Shown in pieces: positions 21,068 through 38,283 of a stretch of DNA of 42,098 nucleotides. Position 1 is the first letter of the stretch. The number at the start of each line of letters is the position of its first letter. The position numbers and the translations under genes were made by a program. The DNA is from a virus: IMG/VR virus record IMGVR_UViG_3300017770_000036, positions 1 to 42,098 of that record; one strand, written 5' to 3'. Under the pieces are notes generated by a model that saw only the letters and a list, made by a program, of their open reading frames with translations, ran no database searches and was not told the DNA's origin.

Positions 21068-21454
21068 TTACTTCTTCTTGATCTTTTCTATAGATCTTCC
21101 TGCGAAATAAGCTCCGTAAACAGTAATAAGTAAAGTTTGATAGATTGGTACATAAGCTGGGGCTATATTAAAGCCTCCAGCATTACCATCGAATATAGAA
21201 ATAACAACAAACATTGCTGTCAAGAATATACAAATTAAAGGTCGTATATTTTTAGATAGCCAATTATCAGACTTCATGTCTGCCTCCCACCTTCTAGATA
21301 CTTGTTCTTGTGCGTTAGACTCTGCCTGCATTAGAACTTCCTTTATCTTTTGTTGAGCAGCTAACTTTTCTTCTTTAGTAGTAGTAAGGTTATCAAGCAC
21401 ATCACCGACCTGCTTAACAACCCCTCCACCTAAAAAATCTAATAATTTACCCAT
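21068..21454 (-). CDS. Holin of the GTA 3TM type
   Basis: A 128-residue protein with the arrangement of GTA-type/3TM holins: MGKLLDFLGGGVVKQVGDVL, then the TTTKEEKLAAQQKIKEVL helix, RRWEADMKSDNWLSKNIRPL, and two hydrophobic segments (about residues 71-90 and 100-120) ending GRSIEKIKKK. Holins make inner-membrane holes that let the endolysin reach peptidoglycan. It is the last gene of the late transcript. Its ATG overlaps the stop of the peptidase gene (TAATG), so holin and endolysin are coupled. Confidence 0.8.
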   Translation of the reverse strand: MGKLLDFLGGGVVKQVGDVLDNLTTTKEEKLAAQQKIKEVLMQAESNAQEQVSRRWEADMKSDNWLSKNIRPLICIFLTAMFVVISIFDGNAGGFNIAPAYVPIYQTLLITVYGAYFAGRSIEKIKKK

Positions 21455-21921
21455 TATAATATTATTATATCATCAGCATATTTATAAGCGGTATCTCCAT
21501 CGTTATTCTTATAAGCCTCTAATACCTCTTTTCTATTACCCTTCTTTTTAAGCGATAAGTGAATCCATGCAAAATCAAATTCATTAATCATTTGGTCAAA
21601 CTCTAAATGAGAATTTATAATCCAATCATATATTTTCTTATTATTCATTTGTCCATTTTCCCAAAACTGCAAATCCAAAGCTTGAGCCTTGCAATGTTGG
21701 CTACGAGTACTTCCGCCAATAGCACGATTAAGTTCTTTGGAACGATAACCACTAGTGATCCGAATAGGACCCAGCTCGTCACGCATAGGCTGTACGAGAT
21801 TAGATATAAGCCTTTGCATATTTTCCAAATGTTCTTTTGTCGGCTCATTACTTATGCCTAATCTTGTTGCTGTATTACTTCGAGTTATTTCTGATAATAC
21901 AAAATTTTTACTTAGTCTCAT
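21454..21921 (-). CDS. M15A-type peptidase endolysin
   Basis: A 155-residue protein of the peptidase M15A family. RITSGYRSKELNRAIGGST is followed by SQH76, then ALD83 and the FAWIH121 site, giving the H-D-H zinc triad. Enzymes of this type cleave D-Ala-containing bonds in peptidoglycan peptides. No signal peptide is visible, so the holin must release it. It sits between the secreted thioredoxin-like gene and the holin, to which it is coupled. Confidence 0.88.
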   Translation of the reverse strand: MRLSKNFVLSEITRSNTATRLGISNEPTKEHLENMQRLISNLVQPMRDELGPIRITSGYRSKELNRAIGGSTRSQHCKAQALDLQFWENGQMNNKKIYDWIINSHLEFDQMINEFDFAWIHLSLKKKGNRKEVLEAYKNNDGDTAYKYADDIIIL

Positions 21922-21929
21922 AATTTAAT

Positions 21930-22265
21930 TTAAAATGCTTCCATTACAATTTCATCTATAGAGTTTTGTACTTCGCCTTTAGTGGCCTCCATAGTCATCA
22001 TAATATTAGCTTGAAATCTTTTTACTTCTTCGTTGTTGTTAAATATAACAATAGTAGGAACAACCACTATCTTATATTCTTTAGACCATCTTGAATCTGC
22101 GGCTATATCAACTCTTTGAGTTTCGCAGTCTGATAGCTTTGATAGCCAAGCCACCTCGTTAGATTTATTAAAACTAGCATTAAACTCAACAGCAACCATC
22201 CCGCTAGGAAAATCTTGAGCTATACTTGTAAGTGGAATTAATAATAAAAATAATAATTTTTTCAT
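21930..22265 (-). CDS. Secreted thioredoxin-fold protein without CxxC
   Basis: A 111-residue protein with a clean signal peptide (MKKLLFLLLIPLTSIAQ). The rest follows a thioredoxin pattern: MVAVEFNASFNKSNEVAWLS, then CETQRVDIAADSRWSKEYKI and VVVPTIVIFNN, including the cis-Pro strand. At the usual CxxC site (after FNA) the residues are SFNKSN, so it lacks the redox pair; a single Cys (C47) remains. It would sit in the periplasm. A structural or chaperone role is more likely than disulfide exchange; this is inference. Confidence 0.7.
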   Translation of the reverse strand: MKKLLFLLLIPLTSIAQDFPSGMVAVEFNASFNKSNEVAWLSKLSDCETQRVDIAADSRWSKEYKIVVVPTIVIFNNNEEVKRFQANIMMTMEATKGEVQNSIDEIVMEAF

Positions 22266-22269
22266 AAGA

Positions 22270-22554
22270 TTATTTTAGTTTATCAATCTTATCCTCCATC
22301 CTCAGCATTTGTGTTTTTATTTCTGTTACATCTTCTTGTGTAGACATAATAGTTTGTCTAATAAGTTGATCCTTCATGTCATATTCCATGCGTGTAATTT
22401 CAGGATCTGCAGGTAGTGGTAATTTTTTAGCCTCTGCTATATCTGCTTGTAACACAAACCATCCACTAATTATAGCCGCCATTGCAAAAGCTATTCCAGC
22501 TAAAGTTTTTATGCTTATTTGTACAGCTGTATCTTCATTTAATTCTTTTGCCAT
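22270..22554 (-). CDS. Membrane-anchored coiled-coil protein, spanin-like
   Basis: A 94-residue protein with a short N-terminus, one hydrophobic segment at about residues 16-36 (TLAGIAFAMAAIISGWFVLQ), and a periplasmic coiled coil (RMEYDMKDQLIRQTIMSTQE to the end). This is the layout of inner-membrane spanins, which connect to the outer membrane for the last step of lysis. No lipoprotein partner with a lipobox was found next to it, so it may be a one-component disruptor or have another role. Confidence 0.55.
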   Translation of the reverse strand: MAKELNEDTAVQISIKTLAGIAFAMAAIISGWFVLQADIAEAKKLPLPADPEITRMEYDMKDQLIRQTIMSTQEDVTEIKTQMLRMEDKIDKLK

Positions 22555-22556
22555 TT

Positions 22557-23657
22557 TTAGAATATTACATAATTAAGGCCAACGCTAAAGTTGTGCCATT
22601 TTCTGTTCCAATATTTATTATACTTGCCTTCTACAAATATACCTAAACTTTTGTTAAATCTATAACCGTAGATTAATCCAACAGAATAATCCATCCATTG
22701 CTTGTTATTGTTATATTTGTGGTAAGAATATTCGTTATCTGTATCTAGATGATAAGGCATTAAATTACCCCAAGTATGAAACCAAAAGTCTTTTGTAAAG
22801 TGATAATAGTCAAATCCTGCGACTATTGAATACTCAACTATATTACCTATTAGCGATCTTTGTTTTGAAACATAATCATTTATTACTTCAGGTATCACGA
22901 CTTCTTCCCATACTTCTTGACTAGTTGCTACTACGTCTCCATTGGGTGCTGAGTATTGTCCATCTAATGTTATATTGTATCCCTCCTGAAGAGCCAAATA
23001 TGTATAGTGTAATGTCCCATTGTCCAGCACCCAATCTGCCAGGGGGTCAAAACCGTATGGCTCTGCAAGTCTTTGAACGGCTCCCACGTTAAAAGATAAT
23101 TTACCTTCTTTAATTTGTAGTCTAAATCTTTCTGATGCCTCAAAGTATTTTATATCTGCAAATCCGTCTGCTAAATATTCTACCTTACTAACCCATTTAT
23201 CTGCAACGTATCTTACAAAGTGATGTTGGTTAGTATAGTTTATACCTAATCGTCTTACAAAATCAGCTTCGAACAAATACTCAAAACCATCAACTCTACC
23301 GATTGTCGCGGCATCAGAATAAGAATTTTCCGTACCATTATAAAAAGTGTTGGCTCTGTTCTCATATCCAAATCTTTTAATCTTTCTAATACCAATAGAT
23401 ATATTATAATCAAATGGAGTTTTAATAGTTTCTTCTTCTAGAGATCCAGATGTTACAGACCATATTTGATTGTCACCTAATGATGTACCACCATTAACCG
23501 CTGAATAAAATGTAGAATATTTAAATATTTTATGTAGTCCCTGAGCGTTGCATGAGGGAACCAATAAACCAAAAAACACAACATAGAATAAAACTAGTAT
23601 TAACCAAAAAGACAAATATCCAACATCAGGTGTAAAAAATTCTTTTAATCTCTTCAT
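22557..23657 (-). CDS. Probable outer-membrane beta-barrel protein
   Basis: A 366-residue protein. A long basic N-terminus (MKRLKEFFTPDVGYLSF) leads into a hydrophobic stretch and SCNAQG, a plausible signal peptide. The rest alternates polar and hydrophobic residues with many aromatic girdle residues and ends in NFSVGLNYVIF with a terminal Phe, as in outer-membrane barrel proteins. Its ATG overlaps the stop of the T9SS cargo gene (ATGA). No PorP/SprF signature was recognised. A virion component or an envelope-modifying protein are alternatives. Confidence 0.6.
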   Translation of the reverse strand: MKRLKEFFTPDVGYLSFWLILVLFYVVFFGLLVPSCNAQGLHKIFKYSTFYSAVNGGTSLGDNQIWSVTSGSLEEETIKTPFDYNISIGIRKIKRFGYENRANTFYNGTENSYSDAATIGRVDGFEYLFEADFVRRLGINYTNQHHFVRYVADKWVSKVEYLADGFADIKYFEASERFRLQIKEGKLSFNVGAVQRLAEPYGFDPLADWVLDNGTLHYTYLALQEGYNITLDGQYSAPNGDVVATSQEVWEEVVIPEVINDYVSKQRSLIGNIVEYSIVAGFDYYHFTKDFWFHTWGNLMPYHLDTDNEYSYHKYNNNKQWMDYSVGLIYGYRFNKSLGIFVEGKYNKYWNRKWHNFSVGLNYVIF

Positions 23658-26131
23658 TTCTTTAATACTTTTGTAGTGCTAATATTACCATTATATGTTA
23701 CGCTAAAATTATATATACCTGCAGGCAATAAACTTACATCTAATTGATTTAAGCCTTTTGTAGTATATTTCTCTTTAACTTGTATTATAAGCTTACCAGA
23801 TATATCATATACTTTTATGGCTACAGGACCGTTTGTTAATATATTTAATACATCACCCATAGGATTAGGATACATAACTATGTCGTGTCCTCTAAGTAAA
23901 TCTCTTGTGTCTAATGGACTATCCCAAGAACAGCTCCAATATATTTGCTCACATTTATTATCCCACTCATTACTACAGCAATAAGGGTCTACCATAATAA
24001 CCCAAGCATAGCATGTATCGTTTAACCAGTATGGAACACCAGGACCTCCTATACAACCTGCATCGTACAAACAACTTCCATCGTCTGTGTTATACACTGC
24101 ATCATAATTATATCCAAGCGGATCCATACAACCCTCTAAAACATCTATGCAATTACCGTTGTCTGTATTAGCTAAAATATCGTAATTAAAAGCGTTTACG
24201 TCTGTACAACCATATATTACATTTATACAAGAGAAGTCCTCTGTATTAGCTTCTAAACTGTAATTAAAGGCATTTGGGTCTGTACATCCAGGAGTTACTG
24301 GAATACACGATCCATTATCGGTGTTAGCAACAGCATCATAATTAAATGCAGTAGAATCACTGCACCCAAATATAAAAGGGATACAATTATCGCTTGCCGT
24401 GTTTGCCTCTTCATTATAATTATACATTGTAGGATCCATGCACCCTATTATAACGGGGATGCAACTACCGTCATTAACATTAGCATCTATTTCAAAGTTA
24501 AATGCAAGAGGATCCGTACACCCTAAAACGGGGTATATACAATTATCATTATTTACGTTTGCTGTACTATCGTAGTTAAGAGCTAAATTATCCGTACAGC
24601 CAAAGTATAAACAAGACTCGTCTGCTGTATTTGCTTCAGGATTATAATTCCATGCTTCATTATCCATACAACCAACTACTACAGCTACACAACTCTCATC
24701 GTCTACATTAGCAAAAGAATCATAATTAAATGCAAAGGGTGAGGTACAACCTTCTACGATTTCTATACAACTAGCATCATCTGTGTTAGCCAGTAAATCG
24801 TAATTAAGAGCTTGTTCATCCAAACACCCGTAGACTGTAGGAACACAGTAATCTCCGCAAAAAGGGAAACCGTTGTATACATGCCAAAAAGGAGGGGCAT
24901 ATGCTTTTAAAGCTCCAGCACCATTATCTGCAAATGGATACATACCTCCCTGTAAAGATACGTCACCTGATGAGTTAATAAGTCTAAATGAGTTATGCAT
25001 AGTCTGAAAAGCGACTTCTGCAGCGGGAGTTTGTGGACTAGCTATTTGAAAATAATATACTTTAACAGGTTTATCTGTCTCTAATGTTATACCAAACTCT
25101 TGTGAGTAAGGTCCAGGCCCCATAGTATATGTACCAAGAATACTATCTTCTTGTACTACCCCTATGTAACAATCACCCCAACCGTCACCACCATCGTCTT
25201 CTATAATAAGAGTGTAGTTACATGTAGGTATAATTTCGTTTAATGTAGCTTCAGGGTTATAGTTAAAAGAATTAGGATTAATACAGCCTAAAGTGTGTAG
25301 TGTTTCACAGCTACCATCATCAAGATTAGCTTGTGGATTAAATTCTAGATATGTGTTATTTGTACAACCTTCTATTGCAGGTATATCGCACTGATCTAAC
25401 CATATAGGACCAGAGTATGCTGCATTACCAAAACCTGCGGTATCTAACACCCATAGCGTGTCTAAACTACCACAAGGCTCTGCGTCACCAAGTATTACAA
25501 AATTACCGTCTGTACCACCAAATAAAGAACCTTCTAAGCCGTCACCATATATATCACTAAGTATAAGTTCTACGCCTGTTTCAGGTACACATAAATCATA
25601 TATAATAGTTTGATTAGCTTGTTCGTAAGAGTATTCACCAGCTGTAACGCTTTCTACAGCTTGTCCATTAGATAGGTCGGTAAGAATCCAACCTGTTTCA
25701 CCAGGGTATTGGTCTAATTTAATTTCAAAAATCATTTTAACTTCACCGTCAGAGCAGCTTACGCCAACACAACTATTGTCGTCTGCTTCAGCCCAAGGGT
25801 TAAAATTAGGCGCTTCTGGGTTAGTGCATCCAAATACAGGATACTCACATGATCCGTCATTGTAATTAGCTTCAGGTACAAAATTTAAAGCTAACATATC
25901 TGTACATCCCTGAACTGTATCTATTGGTATAGGGCAATCACCCTCATCGTAATTAAACTCCTCACAATTGAAATCTATAATGTTTCCATTCCAAGAATAT
26001 TGACTATTGTCACAATACCCGTCTCCTAACCAATTTATTGGTGCTTCTGTGCCATAGCAGTCTACAAATACGCTGTCTTGCGAATAACATGCTAAACTAC
26101 TAAATAATAGGGCGAATAGAATTTTCCTCAT
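23654..26131 (-). CDS. Secreted GCTD-repeat protein with T9SS sorting domain
   Basis: An 825-residue protein. It has a signal peptide (MRKILFALLFSSLACYSQ) and a Cys-rich segment (residues 25-66) resembling a Lin12/Notch-type repeat. Repeats of about 26 residues follow, of the form GCTDxxAxNYxxxANxDDGSC: two at 75-126, two at 255-304, ten in tandem at 435-690. Two unrelated domains lie between (about 127-254 and 305-434). The C-terminus (about 749-825: MYPNPMGDVLNI, VYDISGKLI, LPAGIYNFSV) matches the type A T9SS sorting domain used by Bacteroidetes to export proteins to the cell surface. I infer a phage-encoded cell-surface protein carried by the host T9SS. Confidence 0.85.
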   Translation of the reverse strand: MRKILFALLFSSLACYSQDSVFVDCYGTEAPINWLGDGYCDNSQYSWNGNIIDFNCEEFNYDEGDCPIPIDTVQGCTDMLALNFVPEANYNDGSCEYPVFGCTNPEAPNFNPWAEADDNSCVGVSCSDGEVKMIFEIKLDQYPGETGWILTDLSNGQAVESVTAGEYSYEQANQTIIYDLCVPETGVELILSDIYGDGLEGSLFGGTDGNFVILGDAEPCGSLDTLWVLDTAGFGNAAYSGPIWLDQCDIPAIEGCTNNTYLEFNPQANLDDGSCETLHTLGCINPNSFNYNPEATLNEIIPTCNYTLIIEDDGGDGWGDCYIGVVQEDSILGTYTMGPGPYSQEFGITLETDKPVKVYYFQIASPQTPAAEVAFQTMHNSFRLINSSGDVSLQGGMYPFADNGAGALKAYAPPFWHVYNGFPFCGDYCVPTVYGCLDEQALNYDLLANTDDASCIEIVEGCTSPFAFNYDSFANVDDESCVAVVVGCMDNEAWNYNPEANTADESCLYFGCTDNLALNYDSTANVNNDNCIYPVLGCTDPLAFNFEIDANVNDGSCIPVIIGCMDPTMYNYNEEANTASDNCIPFIFGCSDSTAFNYDAVANTDNGSCIPVTPGCTDPNAFNYSLEANTEDFSCINVIYGCTDVNAFNYDILANTDNGNCIDVLEGCMDPLGYNYDAVYNTDDGSCLYDAGCIGGPGVPYWLNDTCYAWVIMVDPYCCSNEWDNKCEQIYWSCSWDSPLDTRDLLRGHDIVMYPNPMGDVLNILTNGPVAIKVYDISGKLIIQVKEKYTTKGLNQLDVSLLPAGIYNFSVTYNGNISTTKVLKK
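24059..24829 (-). repeat. Ten tandem repeats of about 26 codons (GCTD repeats)
   Basis: This part of the T9SS cargo gene holds ten consecutive 72-78-base units coding for the form GC(T/M)DxxAxNYxxxANxxDxxC. Each unit has a conserved Cys at both ends and an Asn-Tyr in the middle; the DNA has diverged between units. Two further pairs lie earlier in the protein (residues 75-126 and 255-304). Related repeats are widespread in secreted proteins of marine Bacteroidetes. Confidence 0.85.
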
Positions 26132-26340
26132 TGCTTTGCAAATTTTTCAACCCCTGATATACCAAAACAGCCAAGTACAACCCAAACAAAAGAATCGTAG
26201 ACAAACTCGTTAATAACTAAGTCTGTGCCTACCCATCCAGTAACAAGATCTGCTACCATGATCATACACATAATTGCAAAAGCTATAAATCCTACTACAG
26301 CTTTTTCATTCCAGGAATTGTCGTTCTTAAATATTTCCAT
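26128..26340 (-). CDS. Two-pass membrane protein, holin-like
   Basis: A 70-residue protein with two hydrophobic helices at about residues 15-35 and 45-62 (AVVGFIAFAIMCMIMVADLV and FVWVVLGCFGISGVEKFAK). It resembles small membrane proteins in lysis regions of other Bacteroidetes phages as I recall them. Its stop overlaps the T9SS cargo start (ATGA). It may be a second holin or antiholin, or an envelope helper for the secreted cargo. Confidence 0.6.
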   Translation of the reverse strand: MEIFKNDNSWNEKAVVGFIAFAIMCMIMVADLVTGWVGTDLVINEFVYDSFVWVVLGCFGISGVEKFAKQ

Positions 26341-26912: not shown

Positions 26913-27365
26913 TTATGATACGTTTACTACTCCTCTATTATTCCAAAGTTTATTTTTTGTTTTTGGTTTACTTGTAGGTAATGTACTAGCATCTAACTTT
27001 GATGCGTCTGTTGTACCTGCGGCACCGTCTGCACCGTCTGCACCTGCAGCACCTGCAGCACCTGTTGCTCCAGTATCACCTTTATCTCCTTTAGCACCTG
27101 CAGAACCAGTAGCTCCTTTAGGGCCTGTTGCTCCTGTGTCCCCTTTAGCTCCATCGCCTACATCATTAACTAAATGTCTTCTTATCTCATTAAACTCTTC
27201 TTGCATTAAACCTATTTGATATACCAATGCAGCTAACGCAGGTTCTTTATCAGGAATATCTGCTATTTTACTTAAGTATCCAGCATCAAACTCATCTTTA
27301 AGTTTGTCTTTATCACTACCTGTTTTATCGTGAACGTCATCAAATTTTTTATCTGCTAATGCCAT
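26913..27365 (-). CDS. Collagen-like virion-associated protein
   Basis: A 150-residue protein. After an acidic helical N-terminal half (MALADKKFDDVHDKTGSDKD to about residue 66) it has about 16 Gly-x-y triplets (residues 70-117: GDTGATGPKGATGSAGAKGD), a collagen-like triple-helix stalk. Such stalks are common in phage fibres. It starts one base after the next stop and is flanked by fibre genes, so it is probably a tail-fibre or baseplate part. The short C-terminus (DASKLDASTLPTSKP onward) may attach to the virion. Confidence 0.7.
   Translation of the reverse strand: MALADKKFDDVHDKTGSDKDKLKDEFDAGYLSKIADIPDKEPALAALVYQIGLMQEEFNEIRRHLVNDVGDGAKGDTGATGPKGATGSAGAKGDKGDTGATGAAGAAGADGADGAAGTTDASKLDASTLPTSKPKTKNKLWNNRGVVNVS
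27015..27158 (-). repeat. Collagen-like Gly-x-y triplet run
   Basis: This codes for about 16 consecutive Gly-x-y triplets within the 150-residue protein, dominated by Ala, Asp, Thr and Lys, without the hydroxylated proline of animal collagen. The DNA is GC-richer than its surroundings because of Gly, Ala and Pro codons. Confidence 0.75.
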
Positions 27366-27366
27366 G

Positions 27367-29802
27367 CTATGTAGTTAAATCAAATATTAATTCTATTGTT
27401 ATGTTTTGACCACCGTCAGGGTCTTCCGTTGGGTCAACCTTTATAGCCATTGTGTCTCCTTTGCTGTATGCGTTACTTACTGAAGTAAAATCAAATTCAA
27501 CTGCAGCACTTGCGCCTACGGTAGCATCAACATCACCTAAGACTGTGGTTACAGTAGCACCACTCGCTCCTTTATATAGTTTTAAGTTAGTGCTGCCCAT
27601 ATCAGTTTCACTCCTAAGAATCATTTTCTTTACATACCCATCGTAAGGAAAAGTAAAGTTTACATATTCAGGAGATGATGTAGCAGTGTTTTGCTCATTT
27701 AAACTACCATTTAATGGTATATACCTTGCGTAAGGATAGCTCATAAACCAACCAGCATGTATAAAATGATGATGCGTGTTTACAAGAGCTAAAGTACCAC
27801 TAGCGTCTGGAACATCTAAAGTTCTGTTCGTTGTAGTTGCAGAGTTTCTAAATCTAGTTTTACTTCCACCAGTAGATTTAACAACAAATAATTGTTCACT
27901 GATTTCAAGACTACCAGCTAGCACTTCATTAGCATCATTTTTAATGTAATTATCTGCTGCCGATACTGCACTAACTGCATTTGCATCTGTATATGCTGCA
28001 GGTATAGTGGGCTTATTAAGTATTTGTGCGTCACCACTTGTAGCATTCCAATCACTTTGTACATTAACTTCTGCACCCGATGCTATACCATCAAGTTTAT
28101 CGTGATGCGCGGTAGACATAAGACCATCAGCTGAACTTGTAGCTTCAGAAAGATTGTTTGTAATAGAAGAAGCCCCTAAGTCTAAAGCTATTTTACCACT
28201 TTCTATAACAAGACCACCATTAGCTTTAAGGTCTACAGAAATAGCATTAAAAGACAGAGCTATGCCGTCCATTCCTAAATATATATATGGTGTTACAAAT
28301 GTACCATCTTTTCTTAAAAACTTATTACTATGTACACTAGAACCAGCAGGGACTAAACCAGCAGCATAACTATTGCCACTACCCATTGCATCGTATGTGG
28401 TATTTGTATCTGTATAGTTACTAGCGTGTACTGTTCCAGCATTTTCAACAGTAAGGTCAACCTTAGCTGTGTTCGCAGTAATTGCGTCAGCTTGGCTGGT
28501 AGTAATACCAACCTTAGCTGTATTGGCTGTAATAGCCGATGCTTGTGAACCGCTAATCGTAGTTGTATCTCCTGCTAAAGCAGTTGTAGAGGTTGTTCCA
28601 AGACCAGGAAAAGAAACTTTAGAATTGTTAGTTGTAATGTCAGAGGCTTGCTGTGTAGTAATGCCAACTTTTGCAGTGTTAGCTGTAATAGCATTTGATT
28701 GCGCAGTAGATATTGTAGTAGTGTCACCAGCTAATGCCGTAGTACTTGTAGTTCCTAATTGCAGTAAAGTTGGTTTGTTTAATATTTCTGAATCACCACT
28801 AGTAGAGTTCCAATCTGCATTTACATTTACCTCAGCTCCTGTGGAAACCCCATCTAGTTTGTTAAACATGTCATTAGTCATAACTCCCCAGCTTGACGTA
28901 GTAGAGGCAGGTAAGTCAACGCCCTCTCCGTCACTAGAATTTACTCTTAACTTAGATCCATTAGCTTCGTGTGATAAGTTTGTTGTTACATTAGTTTCTT
29001 TAGCGGTGTTTGCAACTATAGCATTTGATTGGCTTGTAGTTATACTAGTCTTAGCTGTGTTAGCAGCAACATCCACACCTACATCTATACCATCTACGGT
29101 TCCAGTTATAGTTAGATTACCATTTTGATCTAAAGACGCAATTGTAGTGTTAGATGTATTTTTAAAATCAATTGTAGTATTAGATTTTATTTCTAGAGAA
29201 TCAGATGTAGGTCCTGTAATTCTTGCAGGGCTTTGCCCTAATAAATCTAAATTAGTTACAGTAACAGTCCCGTTTAAGGTAACATCATCCTCTATTTCAT
29301 TTGTACCTACAGCGTTGCCTTGTATTAGCTCTCTTACAACATTATTGTTTGCAATTTGTGCTGCAAAAATAGTCCCATCCTCTATTTGAACACCAGTAAC
29401 AATATCTGCAGATAACAAATCTCTATTGATAGTTCCGTTTGATATTTTATCAGCAGTAATAGTCCCGTCTTGTATTTTACTACCAGTAATGGCGCTATCA
29501 ACTATCATGTCATTACTTATAGAGCTGTTTAATATTACATCTCCATAAACTGATCCTGATTGTAGATGAGTATTGTTAATTGAATCTGCTGCAATTTTTT
29601 GTGAGGTTACAGCATTATCCTCAACTATTGATTGACCATTAGGCCCTCTAGATCCTGTAGGCCCAGACTCACCTGTAGCTATAAACTTTATAGTTCCAAC
29701 AGAATCACCTGAACCAGAAACACTGCCACCATTTTCTATTGTTATATTTACAGTTGGGTCTGTTTTACTTTTTAATGATATGTTTACAATATTGTTAGAC
29801 AT
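27367..29802 (-). CDS. Long tail fibre with repeat-rich shaft
   Basis: An 811-residue protein. It starts with a short attachment region (MSNNIVNISLKSKTDPTVNI) and a short collagen-like stretch (GESGPTGSRGPNGQ). A long shaft of Asn/Thr/Ala/Ile-rich repeats follows, such as the TSQADAITANTAKV family, and two copies of KLDGVSTGAEVNVNADWN with SGDSEILNKPT, a repeat known from many phage fibres. The C-terminal 120 residues form an unrelated domain (HHHFIHAGWFMSYPYARYIP), probably the receptor-binding head. The stop and the next gene's ATG are one base apart. Confidence 0.85.
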   Translation of the reverse strand: MSNNIVNISLKSKTDPTVNITIENGGSVSGSGDSVGTIKFIATGESGPTGSRGPNGQSIVEDNAVTSQKIAADSINNTHLQSGSVYGDVILNSSISNDMIVDSAITGSKIQDGTITADKISNGTINRDLLSADIVTGVQIEDGTIFAAQIANNNVVRELIQGNAVGTNEIEDDVTLNGTVTVTNLDLLGQSPARITGPTSDSLEIKSNTTIDFKNTSNTTIASLDQNGNLTITGTVDGIDVGVDVAANTAKTSITTSQSNAIVANTAKETNVTTNLSHEANGSKLRVNSSDGEGVDLPASTTSSWGVMTNDMFNKLDGVSTGAEVNVNADWNSTSGDSEILNKPTLLQLGTTSTTALAGDTTTISTAQSNAITANTAKVGITTQQASDITTNNSKVSFPGLGTTSTTALAGDTTTISGSQASAITANTAKVGITTSQADAITANTAKVDLTVENAGTVHASNYTDTNTTYDAMGSGNSYAAGLVPAGSSVHSNKFLRKDGTFVTPYIYLGMDGIALSFNAISVDLKANGGLVIESGKIALDLGASSITNNLSEATSSADGLMSTAHHDKLDGIASGAEVNVQSDWNATSGDAQILNKPTIPAAYTDANAVSAVSAADNYIKNDANEVLAGSLEISEQLFVVKSTGGSKTRFRNSATTTNRTLDVPDASGTLALVNTHHHFIHAGWFMSYPYARYIPLNGSLNEQNTATSSPEYVNFTFPYDGYVKKMILRSETDMGSTNLKLYKGASGATVTTVLGDVDATVGASAAVEFDFTSVSNAYSKGDTMAIKVDPTEDPDGGQNITIELIFDLTT

Positions 29803-30226: not shown

Positions 30227-31204
30227 TTATAATATGTTTTTAAACTTGATTTGATACCCTTCTCCAGGAACTATGTTTCCTATACCATTAAAGTCGTATT
30301 CAGGCAAAACAACTGCCGCTAAAGAGTTTTTCATTATAACTATTTTATCTTGATCAATATAATCTTGAATGTATTCAATAGCAGAGACATTTGTACTTAT
30401 AGATTTAAATCCAATAAAATACCACCCATTATTATATGTTTGATTTGTAAGAGTTAAATTGTTTATGCTACTTGATAATATAGATTTCATTTTAAAATGC
30501 AAAATGCCGTATTGATTTAAAGTATTATTATATGGTGTCATTGATTTTATTTGATACCCCTCGTATTGACTTATATTACCTATACCATTAAAATTCCACT
30601 CAGGTTTATAAACTGCACCAGCGGTATTTTTAATTGCAAAAACAACTTCAATGTATAGTGATAGATTCATATAAAATAATGGAATACTACTATCATTTAA
30701 ATAAAAATGATTTTTTATAAACTCATCAATACCAAGTTGCGTAAAGTCAACAACGTCTCCTATACTTTTTCCTTCCATATAATTATGAGTCATAACAACC
30801 TGTGTTAAGTCTAATGGAACAGAAAAAAACGACCAACCTCTTGGGAAAGCATAACTAAATGTTTGTGTTTCTGTAATTACCTCTTCTACTTCTTCTACTT
30901 CTTCCTCATCATCATCTATAACAACATCTATAATTGTTACTTCCTCCTCTTGGTACGGAACAAATGGATTTGAATCACTAACAAAAGAAGCAATTGTATT
31001 TAGCTCCGTTGTTTCTAGTAAAGTTTCTAAGTATGTTTCTAATATAAAAGGAAAATTAACTGCTGTTGATTTTTTGGATAGTAACTCTACACCAAGATTA
31101 TATTTGCTTACTAAATCTTGATTTATTTTTTTGTAAGTATTTAAATCTAGTTGTATATTCTTAAAAGAATTTTTTACTACTATTTTATTTGATTCTACTA
31201 TCAT
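30227..31204 (-). CDS. Virion protein with flavobacterial surface-type repeats
   Basis: A 325-residue protein with an acidic Glu/Val stretch (EEVTIIDVVIDDDEEEVEEV) before two copies of a module that ends PEWNFNGIGNISQYEGYQIK and PEYDFNGIGNIVPGEGYQIK. Each copy includes a 'W-x-F-x-x-x-P/K' strand near its start (RGWSFFSVPLD, NGWYFIGFKS). Two more copies are in the protein at 31992-32834. The module is one that I know from surface and T9SS proteins of Bacteroidetes. Probably fibre or baseplate decoration. Confidence 0.6.
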   Translation of the reverse strand: MIVESNKIVVKNSFKNIQLDLNTYKKINQDLVSKYNLGVELLSKKSTAVNFPFILETYLETLLETTELNTIASFVSDSNPFVPYQEEEVTIIDVVIDDDEEEVEEVEEVITETQTFSYAFPRGWSFFSVPLDLTQVVMTHNYMEGKSIGDVVDFTQLGIDEFIKNHFYLNDSSIPLFYMNLSLYIEVVFAIKNTAGAVYKPEWNFNGIGNISQYEGYQIKSMTPYNNTLNQYGILHFKMKSILSSSINNLTLTNQTYNNGWYFIGFKSISTNVSAIEYIQDYIDQDKIVIMKNSLAAVVLPEYDFNGIGNIVPGEGYQIKFKNIL

Positions 31205-31992
31205 ATGTTATTCTCCAAGAGTTTTATTTCAGGATTATATACATTGTAAAATTTTTGATCTATATCTATTAATGTTATTATAATTTCTTTTTTATCTGCA
31301 GCTGTTAAAGCCTGATTTGCAGTTATATTTAATGGTATTTCTATATTAGAATTTATACTTTTTAAGTAAAAGTACATGGTTTCTCCACCAGTAAACCCAT
31401 CCTTGTTAGATGTATTGCCATCATCTATAGGACATTTTATAATCGAGATAAAGTTTTCGTTAACAATAGCTCTATTAAGCTCTAGCGTTGTAGTAAAAAC
31501 ATTTTCGTTAGAATCTTTAACATTTATAATTACGTTTTGTTTTATACTTAAAATATTTTCTTCTAAAGCCTTAGAAAAATAGAACATGTCTTGATGGATT
31601 TGATTGTATCCTCCAAGAAGTAATTTATCTATAAATTCTCTTATTTTAAATTTTGCAAGCTCTTCCTTAACAAAAGGACTTAAAGTATGATTGCTTAAAA
31701 GTTCTTGTATAAAGTTTAATTTAACTTTTGTTACAAGTATTTCTTCAGGTAGTTTATTTTCTAAAAAATCATAAAAAGATTTTTCTAGTATTATATTACA
31801 AGACCCGTCAGTGTTAGATGTTGTGTTTTGGTCTACAACTAAAACGCTGTTGTCTACAGAAACCTCTTTCAGTTTGCTGTTTTTTCTGTACATAACTTTA
31901 GCTGTGCTTTTACTTCTTTCAGTATGTACTTTAGAGAATTTATTTTTTAAACTTTCTTGTGTGTGTCCACCTCTGCCTTTTTGCCTTTTCAT
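31201..31992 (-). CDS. Hypothetical virion-region protein, 263 aa
   Basis: A 263-residue protein (MKRQKGRGGHTQESLKNKFS), with a basic disordered start, then a mixed middle rich in Asn, Lys and Leu, and a C-terminal beta-rich domain (IIKCPIDDGNTSNKDGFTGG). It is encoded between two proteins that share repeats and overlaps both, so it is likely a fibre/baseplate or assembly protein. No family recognised. Confidence 0.6.
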   Translation of the reverse strand: MKRQKGRGGHTQESLKNKFSKVHTERSKSTAKVMYRKNSKLKEVSVDNSVLVVDQNTTSNTDGSCNIILEKSFYDFLENKLPEEILVTKVKLNFIQELLSNHTLSPFVKEELAKFKIREFIDKLLLGGYNQIHQDMFYFSKALEENILSIKQNVIINVKDSNENVFTTTLELNRAIVNENFISIIKCPIDDGNTSNKDGFTGGETMYFYLKSINSNIEIPLNITANQALTAADKKEIIITLIDIDQKFYNVYNPEIKLLENNI

Positions 31993-32834
31993 TACTCATT
32001 TTCTATAAAATCTACAACATGATAATTGTTATTTTTTATTTTTACTTGTAAACCTTGATTTCTTACTGTATCACCAACACCATTAAAATTCCATTCTGGT
32101 AAATATGCAGCTCCTAAATAATTTTTGCATATAATTAAATCTTCTAAAAAGGGCTCAAAAATTTCTTCTAAAGGCATTCCACCATATTTTAACGGAGGAG
32201 CCACTAAAGTCCATCCTTCACCAAAAACAGTTGTTCCACCATATTGGATTTGATTGTTAACAATTCTATGATGTCTTTTAGCTGTTACAGTTAGTATAAT
32301 TTGCTCTGTAGTTTTAATTTGCATAGACTCATAATTGTGCCAATTACCAACGCCATTAAAATTATATTCAGGAAGAAATGCTGAACCTAAATAATCTTTT
32401 ACAATAATTATTTTATTATCCTGTATTGGGCCTGCAAAAATATCATCTAAGGATATGCTATCATGTTCATTTATTAAATCATACCCTGATGGCGCTGCCT
32501 CACTTGAGTCTTTAATTTTAGTGTAGCCGCTAGTAGGGTGCCCATAAAACTTTATTCCAGTCATAGTAGGATTTATAACCTCATGTAAAGTTCCATCATC
32601 TTTTTCATATCTTATTTTGGTAACAGTACTTATGTCAAAATTAAAAGCAACGTATGACCAACCATTTACTATTATTATCTCAAAATCTTCTAGCTCTACT
32701 CCTGTAGGATCTACAGCTTGTAATTGAGGTATATTTACAAATGATTTATAAGTAGTCTGTTGTGTTTCAGGGTTACTAGTACCAATTTCAAACAACTCAT
32801 CACCTTCTATGTCTGATAATTTTATGTCTGGCAT
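31992..32834 (-). CDS. Virion protein with two surface-type modules
   Basis: A 280-residue protein (MPDIKLSDIEGDELFEIGTS). It has two copies of the module also found in 30227-31204: IIVKDYLGSAFLPEYNFNGV followed by GNWHNYESMQIK, and IICKNYLGAAYLPEWNFNGV followed by GDTVRNQGLQVK. The modules lie about 100 residues apart, each preceded by a VNGWSYVAFNFD- or EGWTLVAPPLK-type strand. Coupled by TAATG to the next and preceding genes. Likely virion surface. Confidence 0.6.
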   Translation of the reverse strand: MPDIKLSDIEGDELFEIGTSNPETQQTTYKSFVNIPQLQAVDPTGVELEDFEIIIVNGWSYVAFNFDISTVTKIRYEKDDGTLHEVINPTMTGIKFYGHPTSGYTKIKDSSEAAPSGYDLINEHDSISLDDIFAGPIQDNKIIIVKDYLGSAFLPEYNFNGVGNWHNYESMQIKTTEQIILTVTAKRHHRIVNNQIQYGGTTVFGEGWTLVAPPLKYGGMPLEEIFEPFLEDLIICKNYLGAAYLPEWNFNGVGDTVRNQGLQVKIKNNNYHVVDFIENE

Positions 32835-33541
32835 TATTGTGCTAATAAAATATTTCCTGAAGAAATACCGTTTACAGTTAATACTTGTGTATTTAAAACT
32901 TTACCATCTATAGAGTTTACTTCAGAAATAACGTCAGCCCTTACTTTGTGCACTTTTTCGTAGACAAAATCTTCTCCGTGTTTTGTGTAATTCAAAACCA
33001 AATCAGCCCTATAAAAATCTATCTTACGAATTTTAGGTGTAAACCTTAATCTAAAATGAAACATTTCTCCAGGTTCTAAATCAAACTCAAAAGGTAATTT
33101 GTATGAGAAAGGAAAATTAATAATATTACCACCAACACCATTTAAATAATTATACTCTACGTTTCCAGGTTGTATTTCATAATAAGACGGATAGGGTATG
33201 TTATAATCTGTAGGTGTAAAAACATGATGCAAAGGAATAGATCCTACCTCACCAAAAATACCTTCAACGTTTGGGTTGTTTGTATATTGGTTTAGATTAG
33301 CAAATTCATTATTTTCACCGTGTTGCAGATACTCCCTATCAAAATGTATGATAAAGTTTTCATGGTTATTAACTTCTTGTGGGTTACTAATAACGTTTTT
33401 TATATAAAACTTTTTAATTGTATAGGTTGAATTACTACCATAATTTGCATCATCATTCTCAATAGCAAGATGCATAGAGTGGAAAAAATTCCAACCCCAA
33501 ATACTTGTCTGACCTGAGTCTATAGTTGGATCAAAAACCAT
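32834..33541 (-). CDS. Virion protein with Hydin/ASH-like domain (tentative)
   Basis: A 235-residue protein (MVFDPTIDSGQTSIWGWNFF). The part PFEFDLEPGEMFHFRLRFTP followed by GFYRAD-like strands (KIRKIDFYRADLVLNYTKHG) resembles ASH/Hydin-type beta-sandwich domains, also called choice-of-anchor D, found in the 1154-residue fibre upstream. It is coupled to its neighbours by TAATG. Probably a structural fibre component. The family match is tentative. Confidence 0.5.
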   Translation of the reverse strand: MVFDPTIDSGQTSIWGWNFFHSMHLAIENDDANYGSNSTYTIKKFYIKNVISNPQEVNNHENFIIHFDREYLQHGENNEFANLNQYTNNPNVEGIFGEVGSIPLHHVFTPTDYNIPYPSYYEIQPGNVEYNYLNGVGGNIINFPFSYKLPFEFDLEPGEMFHFRLRFTPKIRKIDFYRADLVLNYTKHGEDFVYEKVHKVRADVISEVNSIDGKVLNTQVLTVNGISSGNILLAQ

Positions 33542-33545
33542 AACA

Positions 33546-36500
33546 TTATCCTATAGATATGTTTGGTAAATTAACTACTTGTGGCGCTTCATCACCTTCA
33601 GTATCTGTTATTTCTATGTTACCAACAGACTGAACTTTACACCTTACAAGGTACCTGCCAACATGTAATTTTGTTTGATCATTGTACGCAAAACCTAAAC
33701 TAAGATTATCTACAGCTCCAGAGTAATCAGTAGTAAAATCTTGACTTCCATCATTATTAGTTCTTACTTTCTTTCTGTTTTCGTAATTATCAATATAATA
33801 GCTATATGTTATAACAGCGTAATAATCTCCTTGATCTAATGCTGAATCTTGTTTTGGTGTAAGCTTAAAACTAACATTTATATGGTTTGACCTATTATCT
33901 GCTGCGTAGCATTGGTTATCGTCTAAGTTAACACCTTTTTGTATTGCTGGAATAAACATCTGTTTTGAGCCCTGAGGGTCATAGTAATAATGAGTTTGGT
34001 CACCATAATGACTTGTTGGATTAATGCTGTTGTTACCAGTTGAAGTGTGGTCGTTAGCAATTTGCAATTTATGTCTATGACCTACTTTATCTGCTTCTTG
34101 TATGTTTATACTTTCACCAACATTATGTATTCCAGAAGTTGCTTGATCAAAATATATATTATTTGTTCTACTTACTTTCCATTCTGGTATGTTAGAAGAG
34201 GTTGCATTATCACCATCTCCTACTACAGCTGGATGTACATTTATATTTGGGTGAGGGAGTAAAGTATACGCTCCATAACCATAATTTTTATCACCAACTA
34301 AATAACCATTACTTCTGTCGCCAACTGCAACACCAATACTAACTTGTTGTACATATACTGGGTGATCTCCAGTGTTATGAAAAAATAATCTACCTGCAGA
34401 TCTGTAAACCTGATCAGTTGAATCGTATGTAGCATCTTCAATTTTAAAATAAAAATCTACTCCTGGGTTGTATTCTTTATGGTATGTAGTACTACTACTT
34501 TTTACATAAAGACTTTCAGGTGCGTGTTTTAACCTAAAACCATTAGCTCCAACATCACTATAAAGTGTAAAAACCTGAGATGCACTACTCTGATCCCAAC
34601 AAGGCGGCTTGTATACCGCTAAACCTCCTGCTCCATACCACTCACCATTACCCTGTGTAATAATAGCACCTAAACTATCGTCACTATAAGCTCTGTCAGC
34701 TACATTAGATGATTTTGCTGTAGAGTTACCTTCTCTATACCACATATCATTAGTATTATCATAAAGCGCTTCTGTTGGTAAAGACACCTTGTTCGTGGAA
34801 TTCCCAGTCAAAGCAATTTTATAATCAACAGCAGTACCATCTGTGTGTATTGTATCTGTTGATGATACTAAGATTAACTTTGAAGGTGTTGGGTGATAAG
34901 CAAGCCTGTATTTAATTAAGGGATCATAAATTGGACTACCAGCATTCCACGCGCCTAGTCCTTTACTGTATATCGTATTAAAATATTGATTTGCAACTTC
35001 TATTTCTAAGGCAAATATACCATACCTTAACTCTCCTTCCCCGCCTTCATGCATTGATTTTTTATTGACTGGGTTATTTCCTGCATTTCCATCAGCGAGA
35101 TTGTATGCAGAGCCACCATATGGATTATACAAATCATCAGCGTCAATATTACTAAGTGCTACATTATACTTTAATGCAAGTATTTTACCGTCATTTGTTG
35201 TGTCATTAAAGTCCGTGTAAAGTACGTTATCAGCGCTTGTGTCAACACCAGTACCAAAAATACCATATGTATCAAAATCATTTGCTGAAGATTCATATTT
35301 ACTTGGAGACATGCTACCCGTTATGCCCCTCCATGAAGAAAGAGCTATACCGTTTGTCCCAGCTGTAGAAAGATTAAATTCTGGCAACTTATATGCATCA
35401 TTAGTTTCTGAGCCAAAATAATTATATCTTAAGCAAACACATAAACTAACTATGCTATGTCTGTACATACCCCCACTATTAGAGGCTAAATACCCAGGCT
35501 CATTAACAGTTAGATCTGGATCTTCTGTCATATTAAAAAAGCATGATGCAAAATCTGCTGTGTTAGTCTGATCATTAACGCTTTTTGCTGCGTTTTCGTG
35601 AAAAGTTATTTGATTTTGATGCATACTAAGAAGGTTGTAAAAACCTGATTTAACACCATAAATAAAATACTCATTATCAGTACCAGCAGCAGTTTGAGCT
35701 GGGTAATCTGTATTTATTATTTTACCTATTCTATGAAACGCTTTAAACTCAATATCAGACACAGAAACATGTTGATAATCACTGTAGTCTTGAGTTGTAC
35801 TTTCTGTTGTGTTGTAGTGTGTAGATCTATAATTTATATGATTTCCAGTACCGTGAATCTCGCCAACTGGTAGGTAGGCCCAGTTTTTATATATAGTTTG
35901 CCCAATATTAGGAGTTGATGACAACTCATTAAACATTGCAGATTGACTCTGCGTGCTACTTGTTGCGCATTCACTTAGCAATCTTACAGAGTTAGCTTCA
36001 TGAGTTGTGCTATTCATAAATCTATCTGAAATTCCAGTTCCTGCAAAAATTGGTTCATATTGAATGCCGTCTGTAGTAGAAGGACCCGACACATATAATC
36101 TAGACGTAAGCCCTTGAGCTCCAAATGTATGTTGATATGTGTAGTTTCCTGGACTAGAACTAAGATCTCCTAATTCAATTGTTTTATTTGTTGTACTTGG
36201 AACGTAGCCTACAGGGTAGTACCCTAAGTTAATTGTGTTCCCATCAGAAAGTGTTTCTGCAGACGCAGAAAAACTATCGGCTGAAGATCCGTTATCATTT
36301 GCAGTCCCTATTCTACCTTGATAAGATAAAATATTAACTGAATTTCCATTAAATTCTATTATTTTTGTTTCAGCACTATTGCTTATTGTAATCTGAGGAG
36401 TAATGTCGTTTTCGTTAAATTGTGATGTTGGTCTAAACCTAACTACAAAACTACAATAGCTATTTATAGGTATTACATTACCTGCAATTGTGTCTGTGTG

Positions 36501-37010
36501 ATATATTGGTCGACAATTCCCAGATCCTGATGCGTTTAATTCAGATGCATGATCATTGTCTGCATAATTACTATTATCATCTGTATCGCTTATTGTAGAA
36601 CCTATACCCAAAAATCCTATAGCACCAGAAGCACATGCTGAGGCTTGCGCGTTTGTTGCGCTATTTGTAGCTGCTGCAGTTGATTTAATTTTATTATCAC
36701 CATCTGGGCCTAAATGAGGCACAAAAGAAGTTCCTGTTCCGTCTTCAGAGTAATTTAAATAAAAACCATTATTATTAAAATCAGCGTTTCCAGTAATACT
36801 ATATATGGTTAAATCAGCATTAGATGTAGTAGCTGTATTTTTTAAAGTAAAAACCATGTATGCAGTTTGCTGACCTGCGGTACCTGAAGCTTCTGGATCT
36901 TCAAAAACATAAATATCAAAATCATTATCTGTGTATGTATCAAAATCAAATTTACTACTTCCGTTACTAGTGCTTGAATTTCCTGAAAGTTTAGGATAAA
37001 ATGTTGCCAT
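33546..37010 (-). CDS. Large beta-rich virion protein (1154 aa)
   Basis: An 1154-residue protein (MATFYPKLSGNSSTSNGSSK) rich in Ser, Thr, Asn and Tyr, with few Lys, as in extended phage fibres. At the N-terminus a segment like NSYCSFVVRFRPTSQFNEND followed by ITISNSAETKIIEFNG resembles a Hydin/ASH (choice-of-anchor D) beta-sandwich; the central thousand residues show no obvious repeats, only frequent Gly/Asn turns. C-terminal section ends VVNLPNISIG. It is between module A and the smaller structural genes. No receptor-binding domain can be identified. Confidence 0.6.
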   Translation of the reverse strand: MATFYPKLSGNSSTSNGSSKFDFDTYTDNDFDIYVFEDPEASGTAGQQTAYMVFTLKNTATTSNADLTIYSITGNADFNNNGFYLNYSEDGTGTSFVPHLGPDGDNKIKSTAAATNSATNAQASACASGAIGFLGIGSTISDTDDNSNYADNDHASELNASGSGNCRPIYHTDTIAGNVIPINSYCSFVVRFRPTSQFNENDITPQITISNSAETKIIEFNGNSVNILSYQGRIGTANDNGSSADSFSASAETLSDGNTINLGYYPVGYVPSTTNKTIELGDLSSSPGNYTYQHTFGAQGLTSRLYVSGPSTTDGIQYEPIFAGTGISDRFMNSTTHEANSVRLLSECATSSTQSQSAMFNELSSTPNIGQTIYKNWAYLPVGEIHGTGNHINYRSTHYNTTESTTQDYSDYQHVSVSDIEFKAFHRIGKIINTDYPAQTAAGTDNEYFIYGVKSGFYNLLSMHQNQITFHENAAKSVNDQTNTADFASCFFNMTEDPDLTVNEPGYLASNSGGMYRHSIVSLCVCLRYNYFGSETNDAYKLPEFNLSTAGTNGIALSSWRGITGSMSPSKYESSANDFDTYGIFGTGVDTSADNVLYTDFNDTTNDGKILALKYNVALSNIDADDLYNPYGGSAYNLADGNAGNNPVNKKSMHEGGEGELRYGIFALEIEVANQYFNTIYSKGLGAWNAGSPIYDPLIKYRLAYHPTPSKLILVSSTDTIHTDGTAVDYKIALTGNSTNKVSLPTEALYDNTNDMWYREGNSTAKSSNVADRAYSDDSLGAIITQGNGEWYGAGGLAVYKPPCWDQSSASQVFTLYSDVGANGFRLKHAPESLYVKSSSTTYHKEYNPGVDFYFKIEDATYDSTDQVYRSAGRLFFHNTGDHPVYVQQVSIGVAVGDRSNGYLVGDKNYGYGAYTLLPHPNINVHPAVVGDGDNATSSNIPEWKVSRTNNIYFDQATSGIHNVGESINIQEADKVGHRHKLQIANDHTSTGNNSINPTSHYGDQTHYYYDPQGSKQMFIPAIQKGVNLDDNQCYAADNRSNHINVSFKLTPKQDSALDQGDYYAVITYSYYIDNYENRKKVRTNNDGSQDFTTDYSGAVDNLSLGFAYNDQTKLHVGRYLVRCKVQSVGNIEITDTEGDEAPQVVNLPNISIG

Positions 37011-37011
37011 G

Positions 37012-37734
37012 TTAATTTATTTTTATGTATGTGCTATCTGGTTCAAACCAAATTCTTTTTTTTGAATCTTTATTAGGCAAACAGTAACCAAGAGATCTAA
37101 CCCAGTTTTCTGATTCACCTGTTGGTGTTATGTCTAATATGTGGTTTTCATTTAAATACAAGGCTCTACCTGCAGTCCATTGAGATATATTTTCGTTATC
37201 TAAATCAAAAAAACCTTTATGCATTAAAATTAAAGTATTATCTATGTGGCTTATAAATATAAACAAAGTATTAAAAGCTCCATAGTCTACATTGTTTACA
37301 AAAGCTTTTTTACATTTTGCGCCCCAGTCATTAGCGTTTTCGCTTAAATCAGACTCTAAATAAACAACGTCTCCAAATTTTAACGATGCATCCCATCCAT
37401 CTCCACCCCAAGCATATGCTATTCCTGGATCTACGAAATCATCAAATTGATATGTAAAAGAATCTAACTGATCTTGAAAAGGGCTTTCTACTAAGGTTCC
37501 TAATGTAATGTTAAGTTGCGAACCAACATTTATAACGCTAACACTGTTGTCTGCGTATGTATTAGAACTAACAACGTTTACATGGTGTCCTATTACACTA
37601 ACTGAATTAGATGGTTCAGCTAAAACGAAAGGCGTAGTTTTGTGGGATGGATTAAAAACTAGTCCATCTGGATAAGTAGATATATTTATATCTTCTTTTG
37701 CGTGAGTTATATTTACATTTATTTCATGCGCCAT
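37012..37734 (-). CDS. Virion structural protein, 240 aa
   Basis: A 240-residue protein (MAHEINVNITHAKEDINIST). Its start resembles the first 15 residues of the 811-residue fibre (MSNNIVNISLKSKTDPTVNI), suggesting a shared attachment motif. The C-terminus WTAGRALYLNENHILDITPT followed by RSLGYCLPN and IWFEPDSTYIKI is like a domain found at the ends of phage fibre-associated proteins. It follows module A with a TAATG junction. Probably part of the baseplate/fibre complex. Confidence 0.6.
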   Translation of the reverse strand: MAHEINVNITHAKEDINISTYPDGLVFNPSHKTTPFVLAEPSNSVSVIGHHVNVVSSNTYADNSVSVINVGSQLNITLGTLVESPFQDQLDSFTYQFDDFVDPGIAYAWGGDGWDASLKFGDVVYLESDLSENANDWGAKCKKAFVNNVDYGAFNTLFIFISHIDNTLILMHKGFFDLDNENISQWTAGRALYLNENHILDITPTGESENWVRSLGYCLPNKDSKKRIWFEPDSTYIKIN

Positions 37735-38258
37735 TACACCTGAGTTATGTCTGCACTCAATATAAATTTACCATACAACCAAGTTGTGTATTCTGCATAA
37801 TCATCATTACCGCTAGTCCCAGTTGTTTGCTTTCTTATTTGTAAATCGTATTTATATTCTCCTGACTGAAAACCCATATGCGCATGTGGTATTTGTATTT
37901 TAGCTTGTGTTCCCGATCCAGTTTGAGACGCTAAATCAATTCCTTGATTAGTGCTTCCACCGCTATAGTGGCTTTCTGAACTGCTATTGCCAACAACATC
38001 ATCTGGGTGTGTGTCGCTACCGTTAGTAGGAATTATATCTTTCCAATAATAACTATACACACTTAAAACTCTTTCTCCAGTAGAATTTATAATTGTCATT
38101 TTTCCTTGATAATCTGGAAGACCACCACCACGAGTTGAATCATTTAAATCCATAACACCGTTAGCGTCTTGAATTTCAAGATTTATATGAAATGAATCAT
38201 TTCTTCTTGCGGTAATATTTACTTCTTTCGCTATGTCAGCTTTAAGTGTATCAGCCAT
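37734..38258 (-). CDS. Virion module A, BppU-like N-terminal domain
   Basis: A 174-residue protein (MADTLKADIAKEVNITARRN). It shares MAxxxxADIAKxVNITxRRNDS and a final YDLQIRK, WLYGKFILS with modules B and C; a longer Gly/Ser-rich middle (TPTNGSDTHPDD-type) makes it the largest. The first gene after the promoter candidate at 38273-38280, it probably begins the tail-fibre operon. Role in attaching fibres inferred from family pattern. Confidence 0.65.
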   Translation of the reverse strand: MADTLKADIAKEVNITARRNDSFHINLEIQDANGVMDLNDSTRGGGLPDYQGKMTIINSTGERVLSVYSYYWKDIIPTNGSDTHPDDVVGNSSSESHYSGGSTNQGIDLASQTGSGTQAKIQIPHAHMGFQSGEYKYDLQIRKQTTGTSGNDDYAEYTTWLYGKFILSADITQV

Positions 38259-38272
38259 TTTATTATTTTTTA

Positions 38273-38280
38273 CAAATATA
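38273..38280 (-). promoter_or_regulatory. TATATTTG element ahead of the fibre operon
   Basis: On the minus strand TATATTTG lies 15 bases upstream of the ATG of module A (38258), in the 25-base gap after the large ejection-type gene. An exact -7 match with a short AT leader. It would give the fibre genes their own transcript. Confidence 0.5.
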
Positions 38281-38283
38281 CAT

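Follow-up and report, generated by a model that had tools for sequence, protein, structure and literature searches.

In a stretch of viral DNA of 42,098 nucleotides (positions 1 to 42,098 of IMG/VR record IMGVR_UViG_3300017770_000036; hereafter the window), we found that the gene at 23654..26131 (minus strand, ATG start, 825 aa) encodes a phage protein with the architecture of a cargo of the type IX secretion system (T9SS), and that it belongs to a cassette with genes for an outer-membrane beta-barrel, a small transmembrane protein and a thioredoxin-like protein. We consider it probable, at roughly 0.62, that the T9SS of the host exports this cargo and that the phage barrel acts as its partner. 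An earlier reading of the same DNA, made without database searches (the sequence-only reading), had proposed type IX secretion for this gene. The open reading frame (ORF) was present with every feature that reading had listed (signal peptide, 14 repeats and sorting domain), and the core of the proposal is now supported by a curated profile match and a structure match.

The cargo and its type A sorting domain

The first 17 residues of the cargo have the pattern of a signal peptide, MRKILFALLFSSLACYS^Q. At the other end of the protein, a profile search, the check that the sequence-only reading had suggested, gave scores above the curated cut-offs for two profiles: residues 753-825 aligned with the full length of TIGR04183 (1-72 of 72) at 43 bits (cut-off 23), and PF18962 was matched at 44.5 bits (cut-off 27), the latter match lying at 23666..23875 on the minus strand in a six-frame search of the record (E 2.2e-14). 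The motifs quoted in that reading were located as YPNP at 754, GKL at 779 and AGIY at 804. An AlphaFold model of the cargo, built from 34 phage homologues and of moderate confidence (mean predicted local distance difference test score, pLDDT, of 64.6; about 66-86 for the blocks of the C-terminal domain, CTD), contains seven strands within residues 751-824, and seven strands have been reported for solved T9SS sorting domains (PMC11285876, PMC12618676). The PDB matches of the CTD were led by T9SS CTDs, namely 5ag8 (RgpB), 8glk_D (NucA), 7pq4, 8qb1 (mirolase), 8gl8 (RemZ) and 8gl6 (RemA), several matches being structures solved bound in the Flavobacterium translocon; for translocon-bound NucA (8glk_D) the target TM score was 0.79 with a root-mean-square deviation of 2.4. 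One DUF3244 Ig-like protein ranked among them. With known type A cargos such as RgpB, NucA and RemA, the phage protein shares the Sec signal peptide, the seven-strand sandwich and the PNP, G-K and C-terminal Lys motifs; it differs from them in being phage-encoded, in having its own downstream barrel gene and in its Cys-repeat body, and its export is predicted.

TIGR04183 was matched in 30 of the 34 cargo family members. At loci L043-L046 (e.g. L046:10308-10451), the C-terminus is a short end, xITDLLGR...LLFFIYSDGTVEKKI, in place of the type A domain. This end recurs in 18/295 Bacteroidia genomes, with up to 13 copies in one, and on its sequence may represent another, possibly undescribed, sorting signal.

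Between signal peptide and sorting domain (751-825), the cargo comprises a Lin-12/Notch-repeat-like segment at about 22-66, the GCTD repeats, two non-repeat regions and a C-x-WD-x-C segment (693-734). The repeat unit of about 26 residues, GCTDxxAxNYxxxANxDDGSC, occurs in 14 copies (a maximum of 2 was seen in 2000 residue shuffles), which start at residues 75, 101, 255, 282, 435, 461, 487, 511, 537, 563, 589, 615, 641 and 667, mostly 26 aa apart, and form blocks of 2, 2 and 10 copies at 75-126, 255-304 and 435-687. By the same pattern, copy number ranges from about 5 to 26 across homologues. The protein contains 46 Cys and is strongly acidic, with 120 D+E against 19 K+R. The N-terminal segment (GDGYCD...C...DGDC, 22-66), which the sequence-only reading had not mentioned, resembles a Lin-12/Notch repeat by eye only and is without a Pfam match.

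GCTD-type repeats and type A CTDs were also found in Bacteroidia genomes (75/395 at 1e-10). Outside the T9SS phyla, a protein of Synechococcus phage S-CAM3 annotated as virion structural (L218, NC_031906 36382-37932) carries a short GCTD-type stretch. We therefore rejected the repeats as a T9SS marker: found in Bacteroidia genomes and in one cyanophage protein, they are not diagnostic alone.

A cassette of four linked genes

Downstream of the cargo gene, and absent from the sequence-only reading, lie three partner genes on the same strand. The first (22557..23657) encodes the barrel, a protein of 366 aa with a signal peptide and a C-terminal Phe, whose start overlaps the cargo stop by 4 bp (ATGA). 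It is followed at 22270..22554 by a 94-aa protein, 53-96% identical to its homologues in alignment, for which sequence pattern suggests a short N-terminus, one transmembrane helix and, by eye, a periplasmic coiled coil. The third gene (21930..22265) encodes an exported thioredoxin-like protein of 111 aa, identified through alignments and weak PF00085/TIGR01068 matches. Beyond these lie an endolysin of the peptidase M15 type (21454..21921, minus strand; PF08291 at 6e-18, phrog_894 at 1e-34) and a holin with three transmembrane segments (21068..21454, minus strand; PF11351 at 3e-7, phrog_3427 at 3e-27).

Searching viral contigs with the cargo gave 47 loci. At nearly all of those with enough sequence, the cargo gene was followed by the barrel, transmembrane and thioredoxin-like genes and usually by endolysin and holin. 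All four genes occurred together at 35/35 loci when the cargo served as anchor, at 47/47 with the barrel and at 37/38 with the transmembrane protein; these counts cover loci with enough flank among the best 80 of each scan, and the three sets partly overlap and are biased to close relatives. Across the family, cargo identity falls to about 40%. Among 96 distinct cargo-linked barrels only three gene orders were seen, cargo-barrel-transmembrane-thioredoxin-like (77), barrel-transmembrane-thioredoxin-like-cargo (10) and transmembrane-thioredoxin-like-cargo-barrel (9), all of them rotations of one circular order. The 4-bp overlap between cargo and barrel was present at 64 of the 77 loci with the first order. 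Outside the cassette and the lysis genes, the neighbours seen in the window were mostly missing from other carriers. A host-phage or assembly chimera around 21-26 kb, which the sequence-only reading had named as a case against itself, was rejected, as the gene block recurs with the same neighbours in the 47 viral loci. One 96-kb contig (IMGVR_UViG_3300030116_004105; L053, L069) matches the barrel and PF18962 at each of its ends, owing either to a second cassette or to a repeat introduced in assembly.

The barrel belongs to no family in Pfam, NCBIfam or PHROGs. Its model (pLDDT 71) has about 12 strands and is closest in the PDB to barrels of 12 strands (Z up to 15.5), which comprise unrelated channels and autotransporter domains, with Tsx/KdgM best by Z and FadL among the Foldseek matches. 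Sharing such a fold is uninformative on the function of the barrel. Profile comparison with PorP and PorV gave no match, a weak test in that PorP and PorV miss each other too, and the absence of PorV/PorP among the 50 structure matches listed proves nothing. We also considered a special constraint on the large loop (199-272) in cargo carriers and rejected it, conservation being 0.53 there against 0.63 in the strands and the distant barrel of locus L203 being diverged throughout.

In the thioredoxin-like protein, the cis-Pro motif (VVVPT) is retained and the CXXC active site is missing in every aligned member. The diverged homologue at L203, which reads FWAEWNSNNEV in place of the WCGPC of active thioredoxins, matches PDB thioredoxins at 5e-7. 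By these sequence criteria the protein is a true thioredoxin relative. Because CXXC is lost in every member, a role as redox enzyme appears unlikely despite the 46 cysteines of the cargo, and a binding role more likely.

Distribution, host and precedents

The barrel was found in at least 590 viral contigs, mostly marine, and in none of 50,697 phage records. Among cultured phages, the transmembrane protein had no relatives, the thioredoxin-like protein had only weak matches to actinophage thioredoxins and the cargo had repeat matches only. In genome contigs of 84,980 species the barrel occurred at four places, two of them on clear phage contigs. By ORF content the L050 contig is phage (UvsX-like, helicase and ribonucleotide reductase genes), as is that of L049 (tail-fibre-like genes); L051, a contig of 3.8 kb, also carries the cassette, and L052 is a 42-residue barrel match. 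Only one of the 395 Bacteroidia genomes had the barrel, on the L050 contig. As the cassette is virus-restricted, has different neighbours in different carriers and sits on contigs of up to 155 kb, it appears to be passed as a whole from phage to phage, judging from synteny rather than from a tree. Median pairwise omega was 0.09 for the barrel, 0.21 for the transmembrane protein, 0.42 for the thioredoxin-like protein, 0.14 for the cargo and 0.24 for its CTD, values that are approximate with dS near 0.8-1; they show purifying selection, with the CTD being maintained across phages. Host capture, which the sequence-only reading had thought likely, agrees with the building blocks only, repeats and sorting domains being present in Bacteroidia genomes; the gene itself, as a member of an old, virus-restricted cassette, is no recent capture.

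Several observations bear on the host. In all the exported proteins aligned (barrels 35/35, cargos 34/34, thioredoxin-like proteins 18/18), Gln is the first residue behind the signal peptide; in Bacteroidetes this Q-rule applies on average to 71% of the signal-peptide proteins of a species (PMC5837995). Two carrier contigs, diverged from the window, were binned in metagenome-assembled genomes named Sphingobacteriales and Flavobacteriales, both of which encode SprA, PorV, PorP/SprF and many PF18962 type A cargos. The hosts of the carriers thus appear to be Bacteroidota, and we infer the same for the window. The Bacteroidetes-type promoter TTTG-N16-22-TANNTTTG was not enriched (5 found against 3.2 expected). 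The label "lytic-type" given by the sequence-only reading was not confirmed; the scanned proteins, part of the ORFs of a linear fragment record, showed no integrase.

Phage-encoded T9SS cargo has precedents from 2019 and 2020 (PMC7468147, PMC6949934). A cryophage likewise encodes cargos with type A sorting domains (PMC7468147); those are variable genes (endoglucanase, GH39, PA14) of one phage, whereas here a conserved repeat protein stands in a fixed cassette of many phages. T9SS sorting domains also occur in contigs of crAss-like phages, there near BACON proteins and head genes of gut phages, and the accessible text of that report describes no cassette with barrel, transmembrane and thioredoxin-like genes (PMC6949934). 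In the open-access literature, the field that we searched to the exclusion of subscription papers and preprints, we found no earlier report of the four-gene cassette. Sorting tags so far noted in passing on single phage genes are now seen in a fixed cassette, one that includes a barrel family without annotation, in hundreds of mostly marine viral contigs. The cassette can serve as a marker of Bacteroidota hosts for unassigned phages, and through it one can now test whether Bacteroidota phages employ an outer-membrane secretion machine of the host to remodel infected cells.

Proposed export route and competing explanations

From its position among lysis and structural genes, the cassette would be expressed late, the four linked proteins being made late in infection. 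The cargo would cross the inner membrane by Sec, using its signal peptide and exposing Gln; the host T9SS would then recognise the type A sorting domain and pass the cargo through the outer membrane. In Flavobacterium and Porphyromonas, a type B cargo is generally paired with an SprF/PorP-like barrel of its own, whose gene lies directly downstream and which is needed in matching amount (PMC12618676), and such a barrel anchors its type B cargo (PMC9143113). The phage pair copies this arrangement, cargo gene then barrel gene, with the barrel as proposed stoichiometric partner; for this reason we take the cassette to be a late-expressed device for surface display and the barrel to be a dedicated receiver or anchor, which may contact the cargo at the surface as SprF/PorP-like barrels serve type B cargo in Flavobacterium. 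The systems differ in that the domain of SprB is of type B and the SprF barrel belongs to the FadL type, whereas the phage cargo is of type A and its barrel matches no known family. A type A cargo may thus have a dedicated barrel partner, as had been known until now only for type B. Support from the periplasm would probably come from the two small proteins, the coiled-coil protein of the inner membrane and the thioredoxin-like protein of the periplasm, and the Cys-rich acidic repeats could form a stiff surface layer or an adhesin on the doomed cell.

A number of points weigh against export with a barrel partner. Type A cargo normally uses PorV and has no dedicated barrel (PMC12618676). The barrels of 35 members gave no match at E<=1 to PF11751 and NF033710, the PorP/SprF and PorV profiles, and, compared with the 14-strand FadL-type fold, about 12 strands are modelled, the number being uncertain as region 96-123 has low confidence. 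In four related cargos, the short domain at the end is recognised by neither TIGR04183 nor PF18962. The assignment of the host draws on the Q-rule, the sorting domain and binning, and binning of phage contigs can err; in addition, no cultured phage with the barrel was found. Finally, a lineage represented by L203 (L203:4923-8608; also L214 and L216), which has a diverged barrel (30% identity) and the same endolysin and holin, keeps the barrel, transmembrane and thioredoxin-like genes without the cargo, no repeat ORF being found in L203 or its relatives. Because of this lineage, the three proteins may have a cargo-independent job of their own.

For the purpose of the cassette, our first choice, itself doubtful, is altered adsorption: a cargo displayed at the surface could exclude further phages or keep progeny off spent cells. 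The main rival is outer-membrane lysis, with the transmembrane protein as an inner-membrane spanin, the barrel as its outer-membrane partner and the cargo helping the envelope to open by weakening or remodelling the surface layer or the outer membrane. Endolysin and holin directly follow the cassette in the window and most close relatives, by ORF reading it is succeeded by an amidase-like gene in L050, an unrelated phage, and by a small lysin-like gene in L049, and the L203 lineage combines the trio with the same lysis genes. By eye, moreover, the transmembrane protein has a spanin-like layout, and like phage spanins the cassette has an inner-membrane coiled-coil protein near holin and endolysin. 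The outer-membrane partner of spanins is a lipoprotein, whereas in the cassette it would be a barrel, with a lipobox-like signal in some lineages only, plus a T9SS cargo. Spanins need no partner exported by T9SS, yet a cassette without the cargo is rare; the cassette proteins matched no known spanin family, and late genes often adjoin without a common function. We regard the lysis explanation as rather improbable. Anti-phage defence was unsupported, PADLOC giving no match.

A much less probable explanation is that the cargo is a virion part, a fibre or decoration whose C-terminal beta-sandwich merely resembles a sorting domain, a case that the sequence-only reading had named as contrary to its own. 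Within the window, the neighbours of the gene include collagen-like and tail-fibre genes, and the virion-annotated S-CAM3 protein shares a short GCTD stretch in a phage of cyanobacteria, which are not T9SS hosts. The cargo, however, has a cleavable signal peptide with an invariant Gln, a curated T9SS profile scores above its cut-off, T9SS CTDs dominate the fold matches, the gene is linked to those for other exported proteins, and the tail genes of the window are missing at most other loci, so that on sequence grounds a virion role looks very unlikely. It is scarcely credible that the cargo is a host surface adhesin whose gene the phage carries as an accessory, without an infection-specific role: its repeats and CTDs do occur in Bacteroidia, but its partners are virus-restricted, rearrangement and deep divergence have not separated the four genes, and the searches made did not turn up a complete cassette in Bacteroidota chromosomes outside phage regions.

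Export of the cargo by the host T9SS with the barrel as partner therefore remains our preferred reading. A broader version of it, to which we give somewhat less than even odds, is that the coiled-coil protein, the redox-dead thioredoxin fold, the new-family barrel and the T9SS-delivered surface protein constitute a virus-evolved trans-envelope apparatus that has spread as a unit among unrelated phages of Bacteroidota and rebuilds the cell surface before lysis.

Elsewhere in the window, positions 30227-42066 encode large proteins on the late strand, two of 1154 and 1260 aa among them, for which Pfam gave no match and PHROG almost none. A collagen-like gene (26913-27365) and a fibre-like gene (27367-29802) adjoin the cassette, and neither is kept at most other carrier loci. 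Immediately upstream of the cargo, a 70-aa protein with two transmembrane segments by eye (26128..26340, minus strand) overlaps the cargo start by 4 bp; at other loci, too, it often lies upstream of the cargo at a distance of up to about 2 kb, and it is a looser member of the neighbourhood.

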